A stretch of DNA of 64,000 bases from Clostridiaceae bacterium BL-3 (GTDB lineage: Bacteria; Bacillota; Clostridia; Clostridiales; Clostridiaceae). The translations under genes were made by a program, and so were the position numbers. Under the pieces are notes generated by a model. It was given only the letters and a program-made list of their open reading frames with translations. It was not told the origin of the DNA and ran no database searches. The stretch spans positions 434,001 to 498,000 of the forward strand of contig CADDXC010000002.1 in the NCBI GenBank assembly GCA_902809985.1. The letters are read 5' to 3'. This document shows, piece after piece, positions 4,701 through 63,782 of the stretch; within the stretch, counting starts at the first letter, position 1, and every line of letters begins with the position of its first letter.

Positions 4701-4807
4701 TATCCTCATCTTTCAGTTCTATACTGCAGGATTTAGCACCAATGTATTATTCACAAATACTGGTTGCCGGGCTTCAAAGGGCCAGTCCCTCCACCTCTCT
4801 TGATAAA
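4701..4807 (-). promoter_or_regulatory. SAM-I (S-box) riboswitch aptamer, proC leader
   Basis: The minus strand carries the S-box core in order: AAGAGAGGTGGAGGGACTGG, then CCC-GGCAACC, a variable hairpin, GGTGCTAAATCCTGC and a closing GAAAGATGAG. SAM binding favours the terminator at 4662-4688 and switches off downstream expression. The target gene is proC, which is atypical for this class. Confidence 0.95.
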
Positions 4808-4839
4808 GCAAGTATTTAATTGTAGTTATATTATTTTAA

Positions 4840-9566: not shown

Positions 9567-10763
9567 ATGAAGTCGGTAGAATTAAATAGGATAGAGAATA
9601 TAAAAGAACTGGCAAAACAGAATTATCACGGTGTAGTGGAGTTGAGAAGGTATTTTCACATTCATCCTGAACTGAGCAAAAAAGAATTTAATACCCAGAA
9701 AAAAATCATTCAGATACTGGAAAATCTGGAGGAGCTTGAAATCAGAAAAGCAGGGGGAACCGGTGTTATTGCAGATTTAAAGGGCAAAAATCCTGGCAGA
9801 ACTATAGCAATTCGTGCAGACATGGATGCACTGGCTATAAATGATGAATGCGGCAGGCCATATCAATCTCAAAATAAAGGTGCATGTCATGCCTGCGGTC
9901 ACGATGGTCACATAGCCATGCTGCTGGGAGTGATAAAAATTTTATATGATACCCGTGACAGTATCAGTGGAAATATAAGATTCATATTTCAGCCCAGTGA
10001 GGAAGAAGTTGCGGATGGTTCAGGGGCGGCAGCCATTATAAAAGATGGTGGTCTGGAAAGTGTAGATGCCATTATAGGAGCCCACCTGTGGCAGCCTGTC
10101 AGAAGTGGAATTGTGGGAATTTCTGCCGGACCTATGATGGCAGCCAGTGATGAATTTGAAATAACAATCGAGGGAAAAGCAGGCCATGCTTCCATGCCCC
10201 AGCAGACAGTGGATTCCATATTGACTGCATCTGAAGTGGTAGTCGCCCTGAACACGATTGTGGGAAGAGATGTGGATCCAATGAAGCAGGCGGTTGTATC
10301 TGTAGGTGTCTTCAATTCAGGAAGTGTATACAATGCCATAGCAGGAAAGGCTATATTGAAGGGAACTATCAGGACTCTGGATGAAGAGGTGCGCAGACAG
10401 GTATTTATTCACATTAAAAAAATTGTGGAGCATATAAGTGAAATGACAGGAGCTCACTGCAATATCAAAAAGAATACCTGTACTTATGTAGTGGACAATG
10501 ATCCCGAAGTTACAGCCATTGTTTTGAAAGCGGGAAAAGAAATGATAGATGGCAAAGCTCATCCCATAAATCCCTTTATGAGCAGTGAAGATTTTTCATA
10601 TTATCTGCAGAAAATACCCGGCTGTTTCATCTTTGTGGGTGTGGGCAACCGTGAAAAGGGAATCATCTATCCACAGCATCATCCCAAGTATGATATAGAT
10701 GAAAATGCCATGCTCTATGGTATGGAAGTTATAAGTAATGCAGTTTTGAAATTGCTGGAATAG
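9567..10763 (+). CDS. M20D-family amidohydrolase / N-acyl amino acid deacetylase (YxeP-like)
   Basis: A 398-aa M20 family metal-dependent amidohydrolase. Visible motifs are the metal-site CHACGHDGH at about residues 105-113, IRADMDAL upstream of it, QPSEEE, and a C-terminal SSEDFSYY. I chose the ATG at 9567 because of the TAGGAGG ribosome site 9 bp upstream; an in-frame start at 9522 would overlap carB. The family removes N-acyl groups from amino acids. In Bacillus the relative YxeP deacetylates N-acetylcysteine in S-(2-succino)cysteine breakdown. The genes that follow at 11188-16981 supply the other steps, so that role is attractive here. A repeat, a promoter and a SAM riboswitch separate it from them, so it is more likely read with carAB. 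Confidence 0.85.
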   Translation: MKSVELNRIENIKELAKQNYHGVVELRRYFHIHPELSKKEFNTQKKIIQILENLEELEIRKAGGTGVIADLKGKNPGRTIAIRADMDALAINDECGRPYQSQNKGACHACGHDGHIAMLLGVIKILYDTRDSISGNIRFIFQPSEEEVADGSGAAAIIKDGGLESVDAIIGAHLWQPVRSGIVGISAGPMMAASDEFEITIEGKAGHASMPQQTVDSILTASEVVVALNTIVGRDVDPMKQAVVSVGVFNSGSVYNAIAGKAILKGTIRTLDEEVRRQVFIHIKKIVEHISEMTGAHCNIKKNTCTYVVDNDPEVTAIVLKAGKEMIDGKAHPINPFMSSEDFSYYLQKIPGCFIFVGVGNREKGIIYPQHHPKYDIDENAMLYGMEVISNAVLKLLE

Positions 10764-10804
10764 GGTCTGACCCCCTGACAAAAAATGTCAGGGGGTCAGA
10801 CCCC
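10763..10804. repeat. GGGGTC palindrome, copy 1
   Basis: GGGTCTGACCCCCTGACA and its exact inverse flank an A5 loop. It overlaps the TAG stop of the M20 gene. It is one of six related palindromes in this window and probably also ends transcription. Confidence 0.9.
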
Positions 10805-10815
10805 GTTCTTCGTTC

Positions 10816-10843
10816 TTGACATCAGAGATTAAAATGGTATAAT
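10816..10843 (+). promoter_or_regulatory. Sigma-A promoter of the lyase/ABC operon
   Basis: TTGACA (10816-10821) and TATAAT (10838-10843) are 16 bp apart, with a TGG extended -10. The start would lie at the 5' edge of the SAM aptamer. Confidence 0.8.
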
Positions 10844-10851
10844 AAATTTAT

Positions 10852-10957
10852 ATCTTATCAAGAGAGGTGGAGGGACTGGCCCTGCGAAGCCCAACAACCA
10901 GCATTACTATTTTATGTATGGTGTTAATTCCTGCAAGTTGATTTTTGGGAGATAAGA
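10852..10957 (+). promoter_or_regulatory. SAM-I (S-box) riboswitch aptamer, lyase operon leader
   Basis: It begins CTTATCAAGAGAGGTGGAGG, continues with ACTGGCCC and GAAGCCCAACAACC, and closes P1 with GATAAG. The normally conserved CCGGCAACC is CCAACAACC here, a small departure. A terminator follows at 10973-11016. It implies that the downstream operon is repressed when SAM is plentiful, which fits sulfur amino acid scavenging. Confidence 0.9.
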
Positions 10958-10972
10958 AAATGGTAATGAATT

Positions 10973-11016
10973 CAACAGCTATTTTTCTTATTTGAGAAAT
11001 GGCTGTTTGTTTTTAT
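10973..11016 (+). terminator. SAM-riboswitch terminator
   Basis: CAACAGCTATTTTTC and GAGAAATGGCTGTTTG pair and lead into GTTTTTATA. Confidence 0.8.
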
Positions 11017-11035
11017 ATTCCAAATTAAAATTGAA

Positions 11036-11154
11036 CAACAAAAAAGCAATTAACTGACTAGACAAACTAGAGGTTAAGTTTTATTTATGCGTAAATTTCT
11101 GTGTTTACATATTAAATTTACGTTAGGGGAACTTTGACTCTAGTTTTTTTGTTG
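11036..11154 (+). other. Second structured leader segment before the lyase gene
   Basis: Three nested complementary pairs occur after the SAM terminator: CAACAAAAAAG/TTTTTTTGTTG (11036 and 11144), AACTAGAG/CTCTAGTT (11065 and 11138) and CGTAAATTT/AAATTTACG (11090 and 11114). They could form one long stem ending just before the ribosome site. I know of no named RNA class that it matches. Confidence 0.45.
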
Positions 11155-11187
11155 CCTTTAATACTAACTAAATAGGAGGGATGACAA

Positions 11188-12546
11188 ATGGCATCACATG
11201 TAATTGACATGATTATGCTGAAAAATAATTTTGGTACTTCAGAGATGAGGAAGATATGGTCTGATGAAAATCGACTTCAAAAACATTTAGATGTAGAAGC
11301 TGCCCTTGCGCAGGCAGAAGGTGAGCTTGGAATTATTCCCCGGGAAGCTGCGGATACAATTGCCGGGCATGCTGATGTTGGTATGTTTGATATTGAAGAG
11401 CTAGCACTGGAGATGCAAAGGGTCAAGCATTCATTGACACCTACCATTGGGGCCCTTCAGAAGCTGTGCGGGAAGAATGGTGAGTATGTCCATTATGGTG
11501 TGACTACTCAGGATGTCGTAGATACTGGAGCAATTTTGCAACTAAAGGAGGCAAATAAAATTATTGTCAGAGAATTAAAAGATATATGCAGAGAATTGAT
11601 ATCTCTGGCAAAAAAGTACAGGGACACACCCATGGTGGGAAGGACTCATGGAATGCAGGCACTGCCCACAACATTTGGATTTAAGCTGACTGTCGTGCTC
11701 AGTGAAATTGTTCGCCATCTTGAGAGATTAAAGCAGGCAGAGCCAAGGGTTTTTGTCGGGGTTATAGCTGGAGCAGTAGGTACTTATGCTTCTTTTGGAG
11801 ATAAAGGTACAGAGGTGGAAAAGTTGACACTTGAAAAATTAGGGCTTAATGTACCGGAAATCTGCTGGCATTCGTCCCGTGACAGAATTTCGGAATATGC
11901 AGATATTATAGAATTGATAAGCGGGACCCTTGGCAAAGTTGGAAATGAATTTTATAATCTGATGCGTACAGAGATAAATGAAATTGAAGAACCTTTTTCT
12001 AAGGGGAAAATAGGATCTTCGACAATGCCCCAAAAGCGTAATCCAGCTGCCTTTGAAGGCCTTGCTAGTTTGACAAGACCTATATTTCACAGCGTTTCGC
12101 TGATTCATGAATCTTTGATTGTGGAACATGAGAGAGATGCCGTATCCTGGCGTGCCGAGTGGATTGCCCTGCCGGAAATCTGCATTTATATTTCTTCCCA
12201 ATTGGCTGTTATGAAATCAGTTCTGAAAGGCCTGGTGGTAAAGCCCGAAAATATGCTGAAGAATTTAAACATCCAGGGAGGGTTGATATTATCCGAGAGA
12301 ATATTGTTTGCCTTAGGGAAAAAACTTGGGAAACAGACAGCCCATCATCTTGTATACCGATTGGCCATGGATGCATTTGAAAACAAAAAACAATTTAGAG
12401 ATGTGCTTATTGGCGATGAAAAAGTTATGTCCATACTTTCAGAACATGAAATTGACAAACTGCTCAACCCAAAAACCTATTTGGGATTGGCGCCGCAGAA
12501 GGTGGACCAGGTATTGTCCAATATTGAAAAATCCGGAATATTGTGA
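11188..12546 (+). CDS. Fumarase/adenylosuccinate lyase superfamily lyase, candidate S-(2-succino) lyase
   Basis: A 452-aa member of the fumarase/aspartase/argininosuccinate lyase superfamily. The signature GSSTMPQKRNP is at about residues 276-286, with YHYGVTTQDV near 105 and GRTHGMQA at 151-158. These enzymes remove a fumarate unit from a C-N or C-S linked succinyl adduct. It resembles adenylosuccinate lyase in length, but purine genes are absent nearby. Instead it lies with an acetyltransferase, an amino-acid ABC transporter and an MmgE/PrpD gene behind a SAM riboswitch. That is the set described for S-(2-succino)cysteine breakdown in which a lyase (2SL) splits N-acetyl-S-(2-succino)cysteine into fumarate and N-acetylcysteine. 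The superfamily is certain; the substrate is inferred from context. Confidence 0.8.
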   Translation: MASHVIDMIMLKNNFGTSEMRKIWSDENRLQKHLDVEAALAQAEGELGIIPREAADTIAGHADVGMFDIEELALEMQRVKHSLTPTIGALQKLCGKNGEYVHYGVTTQDVVDTGAILQLKEANKIIVRELKDICRELISLAKKYRDTPMVGRTHGMQALPTTFGFKLTVVLSEIVRHLERLKQAEPRVFVGVIAGAVGTYASFGDKGTEVEKLTLEKLGLNVPEICWHSSRDRISEYADIIELISGTLGKVGNEFYNLMRTEINEIEEPFSKGKIGSSTMPQKRNPAAFEGLASLTRPIFHSVSLIHESLIVEHERDAVSWRAEWIALPEICIYISSQLAVMKSVLKGLVVKPENMLKNLNIQGGLILSERILFALGKKLGKQTAHHLVYRLAMDAFENKKQFRDVLIGDEKVMSILSEHEIDKLLNPKTYLGLAPQKVDQVLSNIEKSGIL

Positions 12547-12575
12547 TGTTCCTATAAATTGTGAAGGAAGGTAAA

Positions 12576-13097
12576 ATGATGGAAAGTAAGATTCGTTTAG
12601 CAGTGCTGGAGGATGCGCCTGAACTCTTGACTTTAGTTTTAAAGGCATATGAACCAATACGGAAACTTGGAATTAATTTTGCCGCTGCTACAGCAGATAT
12701 TGAGTTGGTTAGGCAGCACATAATAAACAACATGTGTTATGTAATGGAACAAAAAGGTAAATTAAAAGCTACCATAGCACTTCGCATGCCCTGGGGAATA
12801 AACCCCGGCCCCTGCGGCTTCCCTCATATAGGATGGTTTGCAGTAAATCCAGATATAACCAGGAAAAATGTCGGATCATCTTTATTAAAATGGGTTGAGG
12901 AAAGTGTAGTGAGGGATACATTGAAGTCACCTGCTGTTACGCTGGGAACTGCAGAAAACCATCCATGGCTTGTTGACATGTATGAGAGAAGGGGCTACAG
13001 GAAGATTGGAACTGCGGATCTTGGGAGGGGGCATATTACTGTATACTTGAGAAAAATTTTGATACCAGAGTTATTTGAGAAGTTGAAAAATAAATAG
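12576..13097 (+). CDS. GNAT family N-acetyltransferase (SnaB/YxeL-like)
   Basis: A 173-aa GNAT acetyltransferase; the C-terminal half has the acetyl-CoA-binding region around NVGSSLLKWVEE and a GTAENHPWLVDMYERRGYRK segment typical of motif B. I placed the start at the ATG at 12576 (a second ATG follows at once), behind GAAGGAAGG. It begins 29 bp after the lyase stop, so the two are cotranscribed. In the yxe-type pathway an enzyme of this family acetylates S-(2-succino)cysteine as the first step. The substrate here is inferred only from the neighbours. Confidence 0.8.
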   Translation: MMESKIRLAVLEDAPELLTLVLKAYEPIRKLGINFAAATADIELVRQHIINNMCYVMEQKGKLKATIALRMPWGINPGPCGFPHIGWFAVNPDITRKNVGSSLLKWVEESVVRDTLKSPAVTLGTAENHPWLVDMYERRGYRKIGTADLGRGHITVYLRKILIPELFEKLKNK

Positions 13098-13154
13098 TCA
13101 ATTTTTATATCCAATATTTTATAGATTTAGTCTAAAGTTTAGGAGGAAATTATC

Positions 13155-13955
13155 ATGAAAAAATTGTCAATATTTATCGTCACTGCAATTCTATTGCTTG
13201 GATTGGTTGGATGCGGTAGTAAAACTGCAGGTAATTCATCTGAATCCGGGTCGAAAGTAATCAAAATAGGTACGACAGGTCAGAGCTATCCTAATTCCTA
13301 TAAGGAAGGGGACAAACTGAAGGGTTTTGATGTGGAAGTTACGGAGGAAGTTGCCAAAAGGCTGGGTTATAAAGTTCAGTGGTCATTGTCTGATTTTACA
13401 GGAATAATGGGACAGCTTGAATCCGGTAAGATAGATTCAGTTGCCAATGCAGTAGCTGTTACAGATCAACGTAAGCAGAAATATTATTTTACAGATGCCT
13501 ATTCTTATGCTGGAGCACAGATTGTCACAAATAAAAACAGCAGCATAAACAGTTTGGCAGATCTTAGAGGAAAATCCGTAGGAGGGGTGCTTGGGTCGAA
13601 TAATACTAAGGATCTTGAAGAATATAACAATCAGAAAAAAGCTGGAATTATAGTTAAAACCTATGAGACTCGAGAGGGAGCAGAAAATGATGTATCCCAG
13701 AACCGTATACAGGGCTATATAAATTCAAAGCCTTTCTTGATAGCGGCAATAAAAAAGAAAAATCTGCCTTTAAAATTTGTAGGAGATCCAATAAAGTATG
13801 AGACCATAGCATATCCATTTGCCAAAACTCAAAAGGGCAAGGAATTTGTCCAGAAATTTAATACGGAAATAAAGAAAATGCATCAAGATGGAACCTTGAA
13901 AAAAATTTCTCAAAAGTATTTTAATAATGAGGATATTTCCGTTGAGATCAAGTGA
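13155..13955 (+). CDS. Amino-acid ABC transporter substrate-binding lipoprotein (YxeM-like)
   Basis: A 266-aa family 3 solute-binding protein. The signal peptide ends in a lipobox (LGLVGCGS), so it is anchored to the outer face of the membrane. The mature part shows the family pattern: IKIGTTGQSYPNSY at the start, FDVEVTEEVAKRLG and SGKIDSVANAVAVT. It follows the acetyltransferase by 57 bp behind TAGGAGG. The permease and ATPase lie downstream, separated by a repeat element. The probable ligand is cystine or a modified cysteine such as S-(2-succino)cysteine, judged from the riboswitch and the neighbours. Confidence 0.9.
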   Translation: MKKLSIFIVTAILLLGLVGCGSKTAGNSSESGSKVIKIGTTGQSYPNSYKEGDKLKGFDVEVTEEVAKRLGYKVQWSLSDFTGIMGQLESGKIDSVANAVAVTDQRKQKYYFTDAYSYAGAQIVTNKNSSINSLADLRGKSVGGVLGSNNTKDLEEYNNQKKAGIIVKTYETREGAENDVSQNRIQGYINSKPFLIAAIKKKNLPLKFVGDPIKYETIAYPFAKTQKGKEFVQKFNTEIKKMHQDGTLKKISQKYFNNEDISVEIK

Positions 13956-13959
13956 TTCT

Positions 13960-14150
13960 TAGGTTCAGATGGAGTTTGCTTATAAGGAATACTTTTCTCC
14001 ACCTGAACCTTATTAACAGTATTCTTAGTGTCTTCAGCACTTAGAATACGTTATCCTTTAGGGGCAGAACTTATCCAGGCGCGTAGCAGTGCTTATCTCC
14101 CACTTTGAAAAGCTGGGAGTATTAGCCAATGGTAGCGGTCGGATAAAATA
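13960..14150 (+). repeat. Composite multi-hairpin repeat element, copy A
   Basis: Three hairpins occur in order. The first has AGGTTCAGATGGAG/CTCCACCTGAACCT arms (13961-14010). The second is GTATTCTTAGTG/CACTTAGAATAC (14020-14049). The third is a 76-nt module closed by TTATCC/GGATAA (14071-14146). The first and third recur at 46450-46737. It lies between the substrate-binding protein and the permease gene of one operon, where it could lower permease expression. Confidence 0.75.
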
Positions 14151-14173
14151 ATTTATTACGGGAGCGTATTTAT

Positions 14174-14845
14174 ATGAGTAGCAATTTAATATATATAAAA
14201 GATTCCTTCGTATCCATAATAGAATATACACCGCTTGATGTATCCATAGCTGTAGCATCCATGTTCTTTGCTGTATTGCTGGGGTTGCTCATTGCATTGA
14301 TAAGAAATAATAAAGTTCCTGTATTGTCAAGTATAGCCACACTGTATGTATTATTTTTTAGATCCATCCCCACTCTTGTTGAGTTGTTTTTGATTTATTA
14401 TGGATTGCCGCAGTTAATTAAGAGCTTTAGTAGCATGGATGCATTTACCGCATCGATTATAGGATTGAGTTTAAAAGAAGCAGCTTATCTGGGAGAAATT
14501 TTCAGAGCAGCGCTGAATTCAGTGGATAAGGGACAGCTGGAAGCATGTCTAGGAGTGGGAATAAGCAAATTTAATGCCTACAGAAGGATAATATTACCCC
14601 AGGCGGCATTAAATGCACTGCCTGCTACCAGCAATACTTTTATAAGTCTGATAAAGGAAACCTCTCTGGTATTTACTTTAGGTGTTACGGAACTGTTTGC
14701 CCAGGGTAAAATACTGGCAGCAGCCTCCATGAACTTTTTTCAAACCTATCTTATTGTTGCAATCATATACTGCCTGCTGGTTGGTGTAGCTTCAGCTTTA
14801 CTGCGGTTGTTGGAAAAGAAATTAAGTCGTCCATATTTAGTGTAG
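14174..14845 (+). CDS. Amino-acid ABC transporter permease (YxeN-like)
   Basis: A 223-aa HisM/GlnP-type inner-membrane permease with about five hydrophobic segments. It has the cytoplasmic EAA loop typical of the family (EACLGVGISKFNAYRRIILP at about residues 127-146) and ETSLVFTLGVTEL further on. The ATG follows GGGAG at the end of the repeat element. It pairs with the ATPase 13 bp downstream and the binding protein upstream to form one importer. Confidence 0.92.
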   Translation: MSSNLIYIKDSFVSIIEYTPLDVSIAVASMFFAVLLGLLIALIRNNKVPVLSSIATLYVLFFRSIPTLVELFLIYYGLPQLIKSFSSMDAFTASIIGLSLKEAAYLGEIFRAALNSVDKGQLEACLGVGISKFNAYRRIILPQAALNALPATSNTFISLIKETSLVFTLGVTELFAQGKILAAASMNFFQTYLIVAIIYCLLVGVASALLRLLEKKLSRPYLV

Positions 14846-14858
14846 GAGGGTATCCGTA

Positions 14859-15614
14859 GTGATTAAGATAAAGAATCTTTATAAAAAATTCGATGATCTT
14901 GTGGCTTTAGATCATGTGGATTTTGAAGTCAATAATGGTGAAGTGGTTGCAATTATAGGGCCTTCAGGTTCTGGAAAGTCTACATTGCTCAGGTGTCTCA
15001 ATTTACTTGAAAAACCCGATGATGGATTTATAGAAATAGGAGATGTTAAATTTGATGCTAAAAACTATAAAAGCAGGGATGTTAAATTATTGAGACAGCA
15101 GACAGCTATGGTTTTTCAGCATTACAATCTTTTTAAAAATAAAACCGTTTTGCAGAATGTTACAGAGGCTTTAATACTGAATAAAAAAATGAAAGTCAGA
15201 GAAGCTAATGAAGCTGCGTTGAAGCTGCTGGAAAAAGTTAATATTTCTGAAAAAGCAGATAAGTATCCTGTTACATTATCAGGAGGGCAGCAGCAGAGAG
15301 TGGCTATTGCAAGAGCTCTTGCTGTTAATCCCTATGCTATTTTACTCGATGAACCAACTTCGGCGCTTGATCCGGAGCTTGTCTCAGAAGTACTTGAAGT
15401 AATTAGGGCAATTGCCCATAAGGACACCACTATGATCATAGTTACACATGAAATGAAGTTTGCACGTGAAGTTGCCGATAAAGTCATATTTATGGTAAAT
15501 GGAAATATTGTAGAGAGGGGAACATCAAAAGAAATATTTGATTCACCAAAAAATGACCGTACCAGGCAGTTCCTAAAACAAATATTAAGTGACAGAAAAG
15601 AAGGGGATAGTTGA
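14859..15614 (+). CDS. Amino-acid ABC transporter ATP-binding protein (YxeO-like)
   Basis: A 251-aa ATPase of the polar amino acid importer family. It has Walker A GPSGSGKST at about residues 34-42, a Q-loop in AMVFQHYNLF, signature LSGGQQQRVAIARAL, Walker B AILLDEPTSALD and the switch His in IIVTHEM. It starts with GTG behind TAGGAGGG. Its TGA overlaps the ATG of the next gene (TGATG), so translation of the MmgE/PrpD gene is coupled to it. Confidence 0.95.
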   Translation: MIKIKNLYKKFDDLVALDHVDFEVNNGEVVAIIGPSGSGKSTLLRCLNLLEKPDDGFIEIGDVKFDAKNYKSRDVKLLRQQTAMVFQHYNLFKNKTVLQNVTEALILNKKMKVREANEAALKLLEKVNISEKADKYPVTLSGGQQQRVAIARALAVNPYAILLDEPTSALDPELVSEVLEVIRAIAHKDTTMIIVTHEMKFAREVADKVIFMVNGNIVERGTSKEIFDSPKNDRTRQFLKQILSDRKEGDS

Positions 15615-16981
15615 TGGCGGAGGAACATTTGGAAACTTTAACTTACAGATTTTCTGAGAAAATAGTCAATGCAGAGCCTTTAAATTGTGACAGAGCTGTA
15701 ATAAATGCTAAATATGCCTTGATTGACTATCTGTCTGCAGCTTTTATGGGTGCAGGGGAGGATAGTGTAGATAAATTGCTTTCCCTTATAGAGGATGAAG
15801 GGGGCAGTGAAGATGTTCCTGTAATCGGGCGAAAAACTGAGGCATCCATGCTGCAGTCAGCCCTGGTCAATGGCTATTCTGGGCATATACTTGATTTTGA
15901 TGACGTACATTCCGATGTGCGCGGTCATCCAAGTACGGTTATATTTCCAACTCTTATATCCCTGGCGGCAAATTATGATGTCAGTGGAAAAAGATTTATA
16001 GCTGCATATATTGTGGGATTGGAAGTTATGTGTAGATTGGGAAGAGCCGTAGGAAAATCTCATTATTTAAAGGGGTGGCACAATACAAGCACTTTGGGAA
16101 CCATAGCAGCAGCTGCTGCAGGAGGATATTTGCTGAAGTTTAGTGTTGGTGAAATGGAAAAAGTTATTGGATTTGCTGCTACACAGTCCTTTGGCCTTAG
16201 AATTCAATTTGGTACGGAAACCAAGCCTCTTCATGCAGGCCTGGCCGCTCAGGCAGCGGTAAGGGCAGTAAAATTTGTACAATGTGGTATCAGTGGAACT
16301 TCATCGGTTTTAGACGGAAAAATTGGATTTTTTTCTGTATATGGCGAGGGGTGTGATTATGCAAAAAATATTTTGACAGAGAATTGGAATAGATCATGGG
16401 AAATAGTTGAACCTGGACTGTGGTTTAAAAAATACCCCTGTTGTTCGGCTTCCCACCATGCTATTGATGCTGCTCTGGAATTGTTTAATAAATACAGAAT
16501 AAGTACTGAGGATATCGAAGAAGTTAAGATAATTTTTCCGCCAGATGGAGATTCTGCGCTGATTTATTCAAAGCCGGAAAATTGCAGGGAAGGGATGTTC
16601 AGTGCTGAGTATGTTGTGGCTCTTGCCTTGAGTGGACAGCCTTTAAGCAGAGACAAATTTAAAAGTTCCAATATACCTGAAGATATCAGAAAATTAATGG
16701 CAAAGACACGGAGGTATCATGATTCATCCATTGATATTGCAAAGGATTCAGTTCCCTATGGAAGGTTTACGATAGTCCAGCTGACAACTGAAGATAAAAG
16801 GATATACGAAGCCCGTGTTGACTGTCCCAGAGGTGCTCCCGGCAATGGCCTTTCTCTAGATGAATTAAAGAATAAACTGAGGAATTCCCCCGTATCAAAG
16901 AGTGCAGCCGATAAAATTATAGAGGTGATATTGAAACTGGATACAGGAGAAGATCTAAATAGGCTGCTGAAGTTGTTTTAA
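15614..16981 (+). CDS. MmgE/PrpD family protein (YxeQ-like)
   Basis: A 455-aa member of the MmgE/PrpD fold, whose known members include 2-methylcitrate dehydratase, cis-aconitate decarboxylase and iminodisuccinate epimerase. Family features include the early YLSAAFMGAG segment, the GHILDFDDVH active-site-like motif at about residues 93-102 and GWHNTSTLGTIAAAAA near 155. The ATG overlaps the ATPase stop. The Bacillus yxe operon also carries a relative (YxeQ), so its place here supports the S-(2-succino)cysteine reading. Its step is unproven; epimerising one stereoisomer of the succinyl adduct would be consistent with the iminodisuccinate epimerase precedent. The stop abuts palindrome copy 2. 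Confidence 0.88.
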   Translation: MAEEHLETLTYRFSEKIVNAEPLNCDRAVINAKYALIDYLSAAFMGAGEDSVDKLLSLIEDEGGSEDVPVIGRKTEASMLQSALVNGYSGHILDFDDVHSDVRGHPSTVIFPTLISLAANYDVSGKRFIAAYIVGLEVMCRLGRAVGKSHYLKGWHNTSTLGTIAAAAAGGYLLKFSVGEMEKVIGFAATQSFGLRIQFGTETKPLHAGLAAQAAVRAVKFVQCGISGTSSVLDGKIGFFSVYGEGCDYAKNILTENWNRSWEIVEPGLWFKKYPCCSASHHAIDAALELFNKYRISTEDIEEVKIIFPPDGDSALIYSKPENCREGMFSAEYVVALALSGQPLSRDKFKSSNIPEDIRKLMAKTRRYHDSSIDIAKDSVPYGRFTIVQLTTEDKRIYEARVDCPRGAPGNGLSLDELKNKLRNSPVSKSAADKIIEVILKLDTGEDLNRLLKLF

Positions 16982-17024
16982 GGGGTCAGACCCCCTGACA
17001 AAAAATGTCAGGGGGTCTGACCCC
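16982..17024. repeat. GGGGTC palindrome, copy 2
   Basis: GGGGTCAGACCCCCTGACA and its inverse flank a short A-rich loop between two convergent genes. The TGA stop of the minus-strand histidine kinase lies inside it, so the kinase's last residues (GQTP) are encoded by the repeat. Confidence 0.9.
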
Positions 17025-22754: not shown

Positions 22755-22817
22755 TTTGTGTATATTAGTTGAATCTTTCTATAATAATGTTATAATTAAG
22801 TAAAATTTGATAATAAG

Positions 22818-23003
22818 TACGGGTTTGATATGATTGATTAAAAGGGAATCAGGTGAAAGTCCTGAGCTATCCTGTAGCTGTATTAGATGAATCTAATTTA
22901 TATGAGCCACTTGGAAACTGGGAAGGCGTATTTTAGATGATGAATCTTAAGTCAGAAGACCTGCCTGTGCTTTGCACCTTTAACTCTACAGGCGATAGGG
23001 GGG
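22818..23003 (+). promoter_or_regulatory. Cobalamin (AdoCbl) riboswitch
   Basis: The leader shows the class consensus: GGGAATCAGGTGAAAGTCCTG, then GAGCCACTTGG, AACTGGGAAGGC, GTCAGAAGACCTGCCTGT and a 3' GGGGGG stretch that could form the kissing contact. It is followed by a terminator and hemA, so B12 would turn down the route to the corrin precursor. Confidence 0.93.
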
Positions 23004-30369: not shown

Positions 30370-30474
30370 AACTTATCAAGAGAGGTGGAGGGAACAGGCC
30401 CTTTGAAACCCGGCAACCAGTACGTTGTTGTATATTGGTGCTAAGTCCTGCAGCGGAAGCTGAAAGATGAGAAT
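30370..30474 (+). promoter_or_regulatory. SAM-I (S-box) riboswitch aptamer, aminotransferase leader
   Basis: CTTATCAAGAGAGGTGGAGG, CCCTTTGAAACCCGGCAACC, GGTGCTAAGTCCTGC and GAAAGATGAG follow the class consensus fully. The terminator is at 30490-30516. Confidence 0.95.
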
Positions 30475-34504: not shown

Positions 34505-35680
34505 GTGATATCTGATAAAATGAAGGAATATGTATCTAAAAGCTCCATAATAAGGGCTATGTTTGAGGAGGGAAAAAAGCTCTCTTCAATTTATGGAGAA
34601 GAAAATGTATTTGATTTCAGTCTGGGCAATCCCAATGTAAAACCGCCTGAATCTATAAGAGAGGCTGTATATGAAATATTGAGGGAAGAGCCTCCTAATT
34701 TAGTCCATGGATATATGAACAACTCCGGTTATGAAGATGTAAGGGCCAAAATTGCTGAAAATATCAACAAAAAATATAATGTGAAACTCACTAAAAACAA
34801 TTTAGTAATGACCTGCGGGGCTGCAGGCGGATTAAATATTATTTTGAAAACTCTTTTAAATCCTGGAGATGAAGTTATTGTATTTTCGCCGTTCTTTGGG
34901 GAATATGAAAACTATGTAAAAAATTTTGATGGAAGGCTTGTCATTATACCCTCGGACAGTGAAACTTTTGAGCCCGATTTAAATGAACTTGAGGACAAAG
35001 TGAATTCCAGGACTAAAGCTGTAATAATAAATTCACCAAATAACCCGACGGGGGTTGTATATTCGGAAGAGCTCATTAAGGGCATGGCAGAAGTCTTGAA
35101 TAGAAAACAGCAGAAGTTTAATACCAGTATATATTTGATTTCCGACGAACCCTATAGGGAAATAGTATATGACGGAGTGGAAGTACCCTATATATTGAAT
35201 TACTACAGAAATTCATTTGTCGGATATTCTTACAGCAAATCACTTTCTCTTCCTGGAGAGAGAATAGGATATGTAGTCTGCAGCAGTGATGCAGATGATT
35301 TTGATAACATAATGCAATCTTTGAATGTGGCCAACAGAATCCTGGGATTTGTAAATGCGCCTTCACTGTTTCAAAGGGTCATTGCAAAATGTGTGGATTC
35401 AAAAGTGGATGTGAACATATACAAAAAAAATCGGGATCTTTTGTACAACCATCTTGTAAAAATAGGATTCTCCTGTGTCAAACCAGATGGTGCCTTTTAT
35501 CTGTTCCCAAAATCGTTGATACCGGATGATGTTGAATTTGCACAGCGGGCAAAAAAATTCAATCTTCTTATAGTCCCGGGATCATCTTTCAAATGTCCGG
35601 GCTATTTCAGACTTTCTTACTGTATTTCATATGATAAAATAGAAAAATCACTGGATAGTTTTGATAAGCTAGGGGTCTGA
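34505..35680 (+). CDS. PLP-dependent aminotransferase
   Basis: A 391-aa fold-type I aminotransferase: FSLGNPNVKPPESI near residue 40, MTCGAAGGLNIILKTLL, INSPNNPTGVVY, the PLP Asp in LISDEPYREI and the Lys in YSYSKSLSLPGERIGY. It groups by eye with clostridial enzymes annotated as aspartate or aromatic aminotransferases; the substrate is not readable. GTG 34505 is 8 bp from AGGGGG; an ATG at 34520 is the alternative. The last codons and the TGA stop lie in palindrome copy 3 (...GGG GTC TGA). Confidence 0.88.
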   Translation: MISDKMKEYVSKSSIIRAMFEEGKKLSSIYGEENVFDFSLGNPNVKPPESIREAVYEILREEPPNLVHGYMNNSGYEDVRAKIAENINKKYNVKLTKNNLVMTCGAAGGLNIILKTLLNPGDEVIVFSPFFGEYENYVKNFDGRLVIIPSDSETFEPDLNELEDKVNSRTKAVIINSPNNPTGVVYSEELIKGMAEVLNRKQQKFNTSIYLISDEPYREIVYDGVEVPYILNYYRNSFVGYSYSKSLSLPGERIGYVVCSSDADDFDNIMQSLNVANRILGFVNAPSLFQRVIAKCVDSKVDVNIYKKNRDLLYNHLVKIGFSCVKPDGAFYLFPKSLIPDDVEFAQRAKKFNLLIVPGSSFKCPGYFRLSYCISYDKIEKSLDSFDKLGV

Positions 35681-35715
35681 CCCCCTTCCAAAAAATGTCA
35701 GGGGGTCAGACCCCT
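35671..35715. repeat. GGGGTC palindrome, copy 3
   Basis: AGGGGTCTGACCCCC and GGGGGTCAGACCCCT flank a centre with a two-base mismatch (TTCC against TGTCA). It overlaps the aminotransferase stop codon and ends about 20 bp before the next start. Confidence 0.9.
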
Positions 35716-35736: not shown

Positions 35737-37065
35737 GTGAATGAGCAAAAAGAAGTTTGTGCTTTTATAAACTGTAATATAATTGATGGCAGATTTGAAA
35801 GCAATATGATAAATGAAGGTGTAATGCTAGTAGAGAATGTAGATGGTATAGGAAAGATAAAATCTCTGGGGAATAAAATGGAGGTTGGCATACCTAAGGA
35901 CTGTAAGGTATTTGATTTAAAGAATAAATATGTGGTTCCTGGACTTATAGATGCTCATGTGCATCTTTTCGGGGATGGGAATCCTTTTACAGAAGAAGGT
36001 GTAAAGAGGACTCCGGATGAAAACCTAGAGTTCATGAAGTCATCTCTTGGAAAATATCTTCTCGAGGAGAACATGAAAAAAAATGCAATGGCAGCACTTC
36101 ATGCCGGAGTGACTACTTTCCGAAGCGTGGGAGATCCACTTTACTATGATATAGAAGTTAAAAATGAAATGAAAAACGGCGGTCAAATTGGACCTGACAT
36201 GTTATGTGCTGGACCTATGATATGCATAACCGGAGGGCATGGATATAAACTTGTATCTGAAGCTTCAGATTCACCCTGGGAAGGAAGAAAAAAGGTGAGA
36301 GAACATGTTTATAAGGGTACGGATCTTATAAAAATAGCTAGTACGGGCGGAGTTACCGATTCCAGGAAAATAGGCGAAGCAGGAAGAGTCCAGATGACCT
36401 ATGATGAAATTGCGGCTGTATGTGATGAGGCCCATAGGGCAGGTCTGCTTGTGGCAAGTCACTGCCAGAGCACCAGAGGATTGAAGGAAGCTTTGAGGGC
36501 AGGAGTGGATACCATAGAGCACGGTGCTTCCATGGATGATGAAATAATAGAGCTTTTCAAACACAATCCTAAATCCTTGAGAGGCTACAGTGCTCTTATA
36601 CCTACCTTTGCTCCGGCAATTTATACGTCGGAAATCAGCACTGAGTACACAAAGCTTGATGATGTGCAGTTTGCCAATGGCAGAATTATAAGGGATGAAA
36701 TGACCAGAGGATTTAAAACTGCTATAGATGAAGGTATAAAAGTTGGACTTGGCACTGATGCAGCCATGCCTTTTGTAACCCACTATAATACCTGGAGAGA
36801 ACTGCAGCTTCAGGTAAAATACGGCGGAGCCTTAAATGCACAGGCTATATATTTTGCAACTAAATCAAATTCTGAAATTCTGGGAATTGATAAAGAAGTT
36901 GGAACCCTTGAGCCTGGAAAATTTGCAGATTTTGTTATCCTGGATGGCAACCCTCTTGAAGATCTGAATTGTTTTGAAAAACCGCTGATGGTGGTTAAAC
37001 GAGGAAATATTATAGATAATACAAGAGAGTATATAATACCTGAAGTGGAGAAGTTTGTAAAATAG
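35737..37065 (+). CDS. Amidohydrolase family protein (imidazolonepropionase-like)
   Basis: A 442-aa metal-dependent amidohydrolase of the COG1228 group. Metal-site motifs are present in order: PGLIDAHVHLFGDG near residue 70, KIASTGGVTDS with the family's bridging-Lys position, SHCQSTRGLKEAL, DTIEHGASM and GLGTDAAMP. The group contains imidazolonepropionase and Xaa-Pro/Xaa-Arg dipeptidases. I chose GTG 35737, because a start at 35695 would be translated from the palindrome, and AGGGAG precedes the GTG. It probably forms an operon with the aminotransferase. The TAG stop lies in palindrome copy 4. Confidence 0.85.
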   Translation: MNEQKEVCAFINCNIIDGRFESNMINEGVMLVENVDGIGKIKSLGNKMEVGIPKDCKVFDLKNKYVVPGLIDAHVHLFGDGNPFTEEGVKRTPDENLEFMKSSLGKYLLEENMKKNAMAALHAGVTTFRSVGDPLYYDIEVKNEMKNGGQIGPDMLCAGPMICITGGHGYKLVSEASDSPWEGRKKVREHVYKGTDLIKIASTGGVTDSRKIGEAGRVQMTYDEIAAVCDEAHRAGLLVASHCQSTRGLKEALRAGVDTIEHGASMDDEIIELFKHNPKSLRGYSALIPTFAPAIYTSEISTEYTKLDDVQFANGRIIRDEMTRGFKTAIDEGIKVGLGTDAAMPFVTHYNTWRELQLQVKYGGALNAQAIYFATKSNSEILGIDKEVGTLEPGKFADFVILDGNPLEDLNCFEKPLMVVKRGNIIDNTREYIIPEVEKFVK

Positions 37066-37111
37066 GGTCAGACCCCCTGACAGAAAATGTCAGGGGGTCT
37101 GACCCTATTTT
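37059..37111. repeat. GGGGTC palindrome, copy 4, extended to perfect 24-bp arms
   Basis: Arms 37059-37082 and 37088-37111 are exact inverses (AAAATAGGGTCAGACCCC...). The palindrome contains the stop of the plus-strand amidohydrolase and touches the stop of the minus-strand LysM gene. AAAA and TTTT at the ends make it a terminator in both directions. Confidence 0.92.
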
Positions 37112-37868: not shown

Positions 37869-37891
37869 ATTAGATTATCCCCCTTAATTTT

Positions 37892-37997
37892 GCCTACGGA
37901 GTTAGTTGACGGGTTCGGGACTGTGGGATACCCCTACTTTAAAAGAAAGATTCACCCCTAGATATTATCCCCCGCATTTCATCACTGAAATTTAGGC
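37892..37997 (-). promoter_or_regulatory. Cyclic-di-AMP (ydaO/yuaA) riboswitch
   Basis: On the minus strand the conserved blocks appear in order: GCGGGGGATAAT, AGGGGTGAATC, GTAGGGGTATCC, CCCGAACCCGTCAACTAAC and CGTAGGC, closed by GCCTA/TAGGC. It leads the LysM/SleB hydrolase gene, a classic target of this class. Confidence 0.95.
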
Positions 37998-38055
37998 TTG
38001 TCTTGTTTGCTATTCTAACAGTATTTCCAGAAAATATCCATGTAAAATTAGTGGG

Positions 38056-62288: not shown

Positions 62289-62333
62289 GGGGGACTGACC
62301 CCCTGACAAAAATTGTAATGGGGTCAGTCCCCC
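62289..62333. repeat. GGGGTC palindrome, copy 5 (GACTGACC subtype)
   Basis: GGGGGACTGACCCC and GGGGTCAGTCCCCC form the arms; the centre is imperfect (CTGACAAAAATTGTAAT). It differs from copies 1-4 by AC for TC in the first half. Confidence 0.88.
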
Positions 62334-63735: not shown

Positions 63736-63782
63736 CTGGGGACTGACCCCATGACAATTATTGTCATGGGGTCAGTCCCCAG
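63736..63782. repeat. GGGGTC palindrome, copy 6 (GACTGACC subtype)
   Basis: CTGGGGACTGACCCCATGACAA and its exact inverse flank TTA-type centre bases; same subtype as copy 5, but with a perfect stem. Confidence 0.9.

Follow-up and report, generated by a model that had tools for sequence, protein, structure and literature searches.

Succinated cysteine is a damage product and a disease marker. The closest described systems for salvage of S-(2-succino)cysteine (2SC) are the Bacillus subtilis scm operon (yxeKLMNOPQ), with the monooxygenase YxeK, and the scm/yxe operons of Enterococcus italicus and Dickeya dadantii, with an S-(2-succino) lyase (2SL) (PMC9706529). The lyase route and its expected oxygen independence are thus already published; in the same paper the 2SL of E. 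italicus DSM 15952, assayed in 2022, converts N-acetyl-S-(2-succino)cysteine (2SNAC) to fumarate and N-acetylcysteine, and YxeQ is listed as a protein of unknown function (PMC9706529). Here we analyse a related operon of six genes at 11188-16981 in a 64,000-nucleotide stretch of Clostridiaceae bacterium BL-3 (GCA_902809985.1, contig CADDXC010000002.1, positions 434,001 to 498,000; hereafter the window). We explain it as a lyase-type scm operon with a proposed epimerase, the MmgE/PrpD protein Q, and with two attenuators in series in its leader, a reading to which we give a probability of roughly two in three.

In this explanation, the ATP-binding cassette (ABC) importer would take up 2SC, the GNAT acetyltransferase would convert it to 2SNAC, Q would epimerise C2 of the succino group, the lyase would split the usable diastereomer into fumarate and N-acetylcysteine, and an M20-type deacetylase, probably encoded elsewhere, would release cysteine. 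Expression would require passage of two serial terminators, the first set by S-adenosylmethionine (SAM) through a SAM-I riboswitch and the second excluded by a hairpin when that hairpin is held, most likely by a protein common to other hairpin-bearing genes.

The operon and its lyase

The six genes are consecutive, separated by gaps of 14, 57, 218 and 13 bases and then by one overlap. Loci (L numbers) and genomes (G numbers) of our collection are named below where needed.

11188-12546, + strand: predicted S-(2-succino) lyase (2SL); 61% identity to the L094 lyase (E. italicus DSM 15952), and tree placement
12561-13097, + strand: GNAT N-acetyltransferase, ScmL/YxeL-like; Pfam, and 75% identity to its L052 counterpart
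13155-13955, + strand: solute-binding lipoprotein, ScmM/YxeM-like; family models and locus comparison
14174-14845, + strand: amino-acid ABC permease, ScmN/YxeN-like; best NCBIfam model a cystine permease, under its cut-off
14859-15614, + strand: ABC ATPase, ScmO/YxeO-like; best NCBIfam model TcyN, under its cut-off
15611-16981, + strand: MmgE/PrpD protein grouping with YxeQ and proposed to epimerise 2SC or 2SNAC; matches to 7bra at 1.1e-134 and to IDS-epimerase at 6.3e-60, residues and tree

The original prediction, made from the sequence alone, had placed the lyase, the acetyltransferase, the three-part importer and the MmgE/PrpD protein in one operon behind a SAM-I riboswitch (10852-10958), and had called the operon a lyase version of the yxe system. 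Open reading frames (ORFs), Pfam and Rfam agree with the first statement. The second is borne out by the neighbourhood, in which L, M, N, O and Q adjoin the lyase and none of the window's seven genes, counting an M20D amidohydrolase gene just upstream, encodes a monooxygenase; related loci carry the scm/yxe gene set in varying order.

Identity of the lyase rests on comparison with the E. italicus enzyme, which was matched to L094 by strain and locus rather than by accession: 275 of 452 aligned positions are identical (61%). Searching the genome collection with the window lyase yielded 62 loci. A lyase tree of 53 rows was built after 15 of 68 were set aside (14 Gilliamella-type rows and the truncated L088), the D. 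dadantii enzyme and PcaB not being included. The window lyase and that of the sister locus L052 (83% identity; G119, another genus of the family) fall inside a 43-row clade of scm-locus lyases with support of 97/99, and the four other Lyase_1 proteins of the genome, which we read as FumC, AspA, ArgH and PurB, lie outside it. The phylogeny proposed as a check in the original prediction therefore groups the lyase with the scm-locus enzymes, E. italicus included, and not with any of these four. Among family models, a PurB-type model and XcbD score best, both under their cut-offs, while the TIGR00928 purB cut-off is exceeded (389 against 326). A PurB identity was nevertheless ruled out on 26% identity to the genome's own PurB-like protein (L005) and a separate branch. 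The window lyase is very probably an S-(2-succino) lyase.

That the same operon serves another substrate, such as an adduct of cysteine with itaconate or another dicarboxylate, or the succinated form of a small thiol, for instance coenzyme M, is a thought prompted by the activity of 2SL on several small thiols in vitro, coenzyme M included (PMC9706529), and by XcbD, an enzyme of coenzyme M synthesis, being the second-best NCBIfam match (466 bits, below the cut-off of 600). The identity of 61% and the gene set shared with a locus whose lyase prefers 2SNAC argue otherwise, as do the acetyltransferase and the cystine-type importer, which suggest a cysteine derivative; no Xcb model appears for the other six genes among the matches listed. 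We consider the other substrates quite improbable, and salvage of the 2SC type a highly likely role for the operon on this comparative evidence.

The operon's parts are rare among its relatives. At E 1e-90 the lyase is found in 2 of 225 genomes of the order, the window's and G119, and at 1e-40 Q is matched in 2 of 206 genomes of the family, the window's own (G000) and G096 (a 29% match), a pattern that suggests acquisition from outside.

Two further loci carry more distant lyases. From position 10001, L111, from a Desulfocapsa metagenome-assembled genome, has two in tandem (41% and 40% identity), outside the 2SL clade. L054 (G349) has a parallel set running from 8396 to beyond 13516, made up of a Q without the tyrosine discussed below, a solute-binding protein, two permeases, an ATPase, a GNAT protein and a 35% lyase of another clade; it is perhaps a related route for a different adduct.

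The MmgE/PrpD protein

The best solved relatives of Q are the B. subtilis structures 7bra and 7e9d (1e-134 and 2e-133), followed by IDS-epimerase (6e-60) and by cis-aconitate decarboxylase (CAD; 4e-29). Q is 50% identical to 7bra over 436 columns, and a 41-row clade of scm-locus Q proteins (support 99/96; 15 of 78 rows, Gilliamella-type, left out of the tree) includes 7bra beside the Q of L053. From this position we take 7bra to be, presumably, YxeQ. Residues H106, Y152, H92, D95, H157, K205 and K273 of Q align with the two-base His/Tyr pair and carboxylate-binding set of 2hp0. Among Q proteins of scm loci, many of them near-identical Gilliamella copies, the base His is kept in 54 of 54 and the base Tyr in 51 of 54; CAD has Ile at the Tyr site. 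In the tree the Q clade stands apart from CAD (one CAD row, on a long branch).

Q accompanies the lyase closely. It lies within about 10 kb in 53 of the 58 loci whose lyase reaches 55% identity (57 of the 62 search loci plus L052), and in 44 of the 45 whose lyase starts more than 7 kb from the left end and more than 8 kb from the right. The five loci lacking it are L052, L066 and three that are short or truncated at a contig end (L062, L064 and L088); in one of the 53, L072, Q falls outside the Q clade. L053 is a locus of the YxeK type, with L, M, N, O, P, Q and a luciferase-like monooxygenase and no 2SL.

Lyases of the fumarase superfamily are stereospecific and the uncatalysed addition of a thiol to fumarate is not, so both diastereomers of the adduct are to be expected. 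Q occurs with both YxeK and 2SL, whose C4 products differ (oxaloacetate and fumarate, respectively; PMC9706529), which points to a common dicarboxylate substrate, 2SC or 2SNAC. Substrates of all known members of the family share a 1,4-dicarboxylate backbone, and a His/Tyr two-base mechanism has been proposed for its epimerases (PMC12290011). Taken together, the shared substrate, the stereospecific lyase and the non-stereospecific formation of the adduct lead us to propose that Q epimerises the succino carbon, which would make both diastereomers available to the lyase, a role that the comparison slightly favours.

Several observations pull the other way. The base Tyr is missing from L072 (outside the Q clade), from L103 and L105 (inside it) and from the related Q of L054 (inside it), and it is shared by 13 of 21 other MmgE/PrpD proteins, so that it separates Q from CAD only; this last point lowers the odds of an epimerase. 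The sister locus L052 has no Q in its 17 kb and L066 none within 10 kb, and with Q in only 2 of 206 family genomes this indicates that Q is dispensable.

The main competing view makes Q a dehydratase, a decarboxylase or an enzyme acting on a side product. The MmgE/PrpD fold family does include 2-methylcitrate dehydratase and CAD, the Tyr also occurs, in the 21 other aligned proteins, outside epimerases of known function, and the B. subtilis relative is deposited as 'IRG1' (cis-aconitate decarboxylase) and treated as such in PMC7347537. The available text of that paper, however, offers structure and docking and no activity for the protein; it reports that the active-site residues of the B. subtilis protein and IDS-epimerase are fully conserved, H99 and Y145 being put forward as the pair of epimerase bases, and that conservation fails at two positions that matter in mammalian IRG1 (PMC7347537). 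The available text of PMC12290011 groups the B. subtilis protein with no known CAD, states that enzymatic evidence for it does not exist and describes its function as undetermined, its two-base mechanism being one for epimerases. The separation of the Q clade from the single CAD row argues in the same direction, and a role on the C4 products would not be common to the YxeK and 2SL routes. On balance we regard these other activities as unlikely and retain the epimerase as the preferred role.

In the published work, 2SC and 2SNAC were at first prepared by a previously described procedure, and 2SL was used for this afterwards (PMC9706529). The words stereo- and diastereo- are absent from the available text of PMC9706529, as are words for 2SC stereochemistry from that of PMC11820211, and a full-text literature search gave nothing on the subject among the matches listed. 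If true, the epimerase role explains why Q travels with both the oxygenase and the lyase routes, and it offers a cheap and concrete test for YxeQ, the only scm protein listed without a function.

Two probable attenuators in the leader

Between promoter and lyase gene, the leader contains two successive attenuator-like arrangements.

10816-10843, + strand: operon promoter, sigma-70 with extended -10; 12/12 consensus matches (consensus match only)
10852-10958, + strand: SAM-I riboswitch aptamer; RF00162, 79.2 bits, E 5.5e-17, gathering threshold 44.4
10950-10993, + strand: predicted antiterminator 1, over the P1 3' strand and the 5' arm of terminator 1; -10.0 kcal/mol for 10945-11000
10974-11007, + strand: intrinsic terminator 1 of the SAM-I riboswitch; terminator-like hairpin, folding
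11046-11082, + strand: second regulatory element, a conserved CTAG hairpin, antiterminator-like; model R1, 47.5 bits (this copy is among the ten training rows), and covariation
11064-11146, + strand: intrinsic terminator 2, its 5' arm being the 3' half of the hairpin; -26.6 kcal/mol

Promoter-like sites as a class are not enriched in the region of 10816-10843 (25 against 23.5 in shuffles). The riboswitch of the original prediction is confirmed by its score of 79.2 bits against a gathering threshold of 44.4, and the genome holds 21 SAM-I matches. In folds of 10945-11000 and of a transcript cut at 10992, the P1 3' strand is predicted to pair with the terminator's 5' arm, while P1 and terminator 1 form in longer transcripts. 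Working against a SAM response in this form, the fold of the full-length leader still keeps terminator 1 when P1 is blocked, which would require the SAM switch to operate co-transcriptionally.

Whole-locus Rfam scans, which covered 19 of the 62 search loci plus L052 and L053 and also L030, L031, L032 and L051, gave no SAM-I before scm genes in the 19 loci, L052 and L053; the SAM-I of L101 precedes a metK-like gene. A strict SAM-I text pattern run over the 62 loci matched the window only, but it is weak and misses the real SAM-I of L101. T-box leaders replace SAM-I before the 2SL operons of L052 (10552-10787) and L094 (8425-8639; L094 scores 96.2 bits), and reading their specifiers by eye from the T-box layout, we take them to be TGC (Cys) in L052 and ATG (Met) in L094. 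Given SAM-I in the window and T-boxes in these two loci, related scm operons seem to be wired to sulfur status by different RNAs.

The second attenuator lies downstream of terminator 1. The hairpin and terminator 2 are mutually exclusive (-26.6 kcal/mol unconstrained against -20.5 kcal/mol with the hairpin enforced), and a search with 11022-11165 found two further places in the genome, both just 3' of other SAM-I riboswitches. The hairpin consists of a variable outer stem, a GA/AG internal loop, a CYAG stem and an A-rich five-base loop. Across ten aligned copies, 98.6% of cells are paired and five of seven pairs show changes on both sides, against pairing of only 14-43% in slid structures; with 62 distinct rows, in an alignment fitted to the model, six of seven pairs covary. 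Model R1, trained on the ten rows, matches the genome of the window 13 times and occurs at least once in 51 of the 200 genomes of the family, with a maximum of 34 matches in one; with stricter filters, the other 149 show no match at E 0.05. The hairpin follows seven of the genome's SAM-I riboswitches, 20 loci having been examined. Terminators accompany it: 53 of 56 copies have a fold at least as stable as -7 kcal/mol that ends at a T-run no more than 130 bases from the second CTAG arm, compared with 202 of 1,120 random positions. The 56 were drawn from 72 R1 matches by leaving out duplicates of one place and the weakest, and they include some near-identical copies from related genomes.

Four features of these analyses count against so clear a picture. 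The ten rows were hand-picked from 14 of the 56 sites counted for the pattern (L138, L142, L146 and L160 were dropped because they looked coding or lacked the outer stem, and the L006 variant was left out), and R1 inherits this choice. In the shuffle control of the ten copies, one of five measures, further pair types, was not exceeded. Coding DNA is among the random positions, which were drawn from the loci of the copies. With up to three mismatches allowed, the raw 17-base pattern occurs no more often than its reversed control (26+30 against 32+29).

A same-strand ORF of at least 80 amino acids starts within 700 bases at 33 of 36 hairpin sites (mostly one site per locus). Of 21 downstream proteins searched, 11 are parts of ABC importers (SsuA- and SsuC-like, MetQ/NlpA, SBP_bac_3 and others, that of L176 sugar-type); the other ten comprise one metK product, three proteins of nitrogenase component 1 type, a NifH-type protein, NifB, an M20 hydrolase, an amino-acid permease, a ROK regulator and a ferredoxin-type protein. 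The nitrogenase-like set may be a methylthio-alkane reductase. The hairpin thus often precedes sulfur-related genes, not all of them provably so, and it marks a set in which genes for sulfur and methionine uptake, metK and genes of nitrogenase type are prominent, which points to a regulator shared by them.

Might the element be an ordinary repeat or a DNA operator rather than a regulatory RNA? It is a short palindrome in many copies, clustered in some genomes, DNA dyads keep pairing too, and in L174 the gene that follows it encodes a ROK-family DNA-binding regulator. Its outer stem, however, varies freely while pairing persists, the conserved GA and AG that flank its inner stem do not obey dyad symmetry, and both the association with terminators and the gene context speak against a repeat or operator. 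A plain mobile repeat was dropped on terminator association and covariation. We judge a repeat or operator improbable, and the second attenuator is likely, from its covariation and setting, to be a real regulatory RNA.

What holds the hairpin is less certain, and we put a protein partner at about even odds. ANTAR proteins came into consideration since the hairpin overlaps its terminator as in eut and nas leaders. ANTAR domains are present in 122 of the 200 genomes and in 36 of the 51 that bear hairpins; in G147 a hairpin copy has the ANTAR gene some 2 kb away, and in G133 the ANTAR gene sits within the stretch rich in hairpins. At E 0.001, no ANTAR domain is found in the window's own genome (13 hairpin matches) or in 14 other hairpin genomes, including G148 with 34 matches; five of these 15 have only weak hairpin matches. 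ANTAR targets, moreover, are two hairpins with six-base loops and conserved A1 and G4 (PMC3369931), against one hairpin with an A-rich five-base loop here. ANTAR as the general reader was rejected on the 15 of 51 genomes without the domain, and an ANTAR antiterminator target is a very improbable identity for the window's element, though an ANTAR-hairpin link may exist in some genomes.

Rfam (4,227 families) gave only matches far below gathering for 10940-11220 of the window (to E 10) and for 1361-3676 of L195 (to E 5). The region after metK in L195 (same genus), to which the latter belongs, carries six R1 matches, and five of these lie in two tight clusters; by eye its - strand also shows short Cys-rich frames (CSCCMCCC, YCCC), a Met-rich one and hairpins with T-runs. 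This suggests, as an idea and not a result, a cysteine-attenuated sponge RNA. In the window's own genome, the region downstream of L133 has no hairpin array, a single copy being seen. Within terminator 2, a 16-codon reading frame with one Cys codon (11087-11137) may be due to chance.

A wider reading joins these threads: the family's sulfur-related genes would share a new attenuation hairpin read by a non-ANTAR regulator, alone or in series with SAM-I or a T-box, the arrays of L195 would be a cysteine-attenuated sponge, and YxeQ/ScmQ would be the missing epimerase. We offer it tentatively and think it somewhat doubtful as a whole.

Flanking features and comparison with known systems

The original prediction had also enlisted the M20D amidohydrolase gene upstream, as the deacetylase corresponding to YxeP. 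This part was not supported.

9567-10763, + strand: M20D amidohydrolase; ORF list and family models, ATG start (the listed ORF opens at TTG 9522)
10763-10803, + strand: palindromic terminator-like element closing the M20D unit; 18-bp stem
16983-17023, no strand assigned: palindrome 3' of the operon, of the same type; palindrome search
10763-10803, 16983-17023, 35673-35713, 37065-37105, 62291-62307 and 63739-63779: copies of the GGGTCTGACCCCCTGAC palindrome in the window

The M20D gene stands upstream of the operon promoter as a separate transcription unit with its own terminator-like palindrome, starting 29 bases after a 1,070-amino-acid ORF that we read by eye as carB. Its product shares 33-39% identity with the 33 P proteins of scm loci, against medians of 43-60% among those proteins, to which the P protein of L052 belongs as an ordinary member (median 58%). 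In the M20D tree, in whose paralog version two rows are the same gene, it sits on a long branch without support. A ScmP orthologue was rejected on identity and tree, and the absence of one in or beside the operon counts against the salvage reading. Three B. subtilis deacetylases are redundant, and together with YkuR they share only 35-50% identity (PMC12757645). Redundancy of this kind means that another M20 protein of the genome (12 TIGR01891 matches, eight over the cut-off) may carry out deacetylation, and the low identities leave room for the window M20D itself to do so. A distant M20 hydrolase (L123; G000 C1:848406-849389) directly behind a SAM-I riboswitch (849527-849640) is a candidate deacetylase of the sulfur regulon.

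The palindrome around GGGTCTGACCCCCTGAC flanks the operon on both sides and is repeated in the window, with 11 half-sites at up to two mismatches against 0 expected. A plasmid search with the 43-base palindrome gave no match, and the GC profile showed no island border. Besides that of the operon, the window contains two SAM-I riboswitches, one cobalamin and one c-di-AMP riboswitch, at 30370-30473 (+), 4703-4809 (-), 22804-22982 (+) and 37876-38008 (-).

Relative to the original prediction, the epimerase proposal for Q and the second attenuator (11046-11146) are additions. A literature search outside most of the subscription literature returned, among the matches listed, no SAM-riboswitch-controlled scm operon, no epimerase role for YxeQ/ScmQ and no such hairpin. 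The available text of PMC11477304, on SAM-I targets in Clostridioides difficile, names no scm operon, and PMC2965389 mentions an attenuator that an operon for a sulfonate transporter shares with one other gene and that is depicted in its supplement.

Compared with the dual-hairpin antiterminators of ANTAR proteins, the window's element is alike in that the 3' part of the hairpin is the 5' arm of the terminator; it differs in being a single hairpin with another loop, in a genome where no ANTAR domain was found. Q resembles IDS-epimerase (2hp0, aligned here) and the (S)-(R)-methylsuccinate isomerase (PMC12290011) in the MmgE/PrpD fold, the base His, the base Tyr and two Lys, whereas IDS-epimerase scores 206 bits to Q against 453 for 7bra and lies outside the scm Q clade. 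With the S-box/SAM-I regulon of Firmicutes the leader shares the aptamer and, as predicted, the logic of P1, antiterminator and terminator; the scm target was not met in the literature searched, and the second hairpin is a further difference. The B. subtilis scm operon has L, M, N, O and Q in common with the window operon but uses the YxeK monooxygenase and CymR control (PMC2743287), in place of which the window has a lyase and RNA control. The nearest system is the 2SL-type scm/yxe operon of E. italicus and D. dadantii, alike in the replacement of YxeK by 2SL, the acetyltransferase, the three-part importer and the YxeQ homologue (PMC9706529). The window departs from it in having SAM-I and a second attenuator, where E. 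italicus has a T-box leader, and no ScmP orthologue in the cluster. The pathway belongs to a published system, and its combination with SAM-I and a second attenuator sets this member apart.

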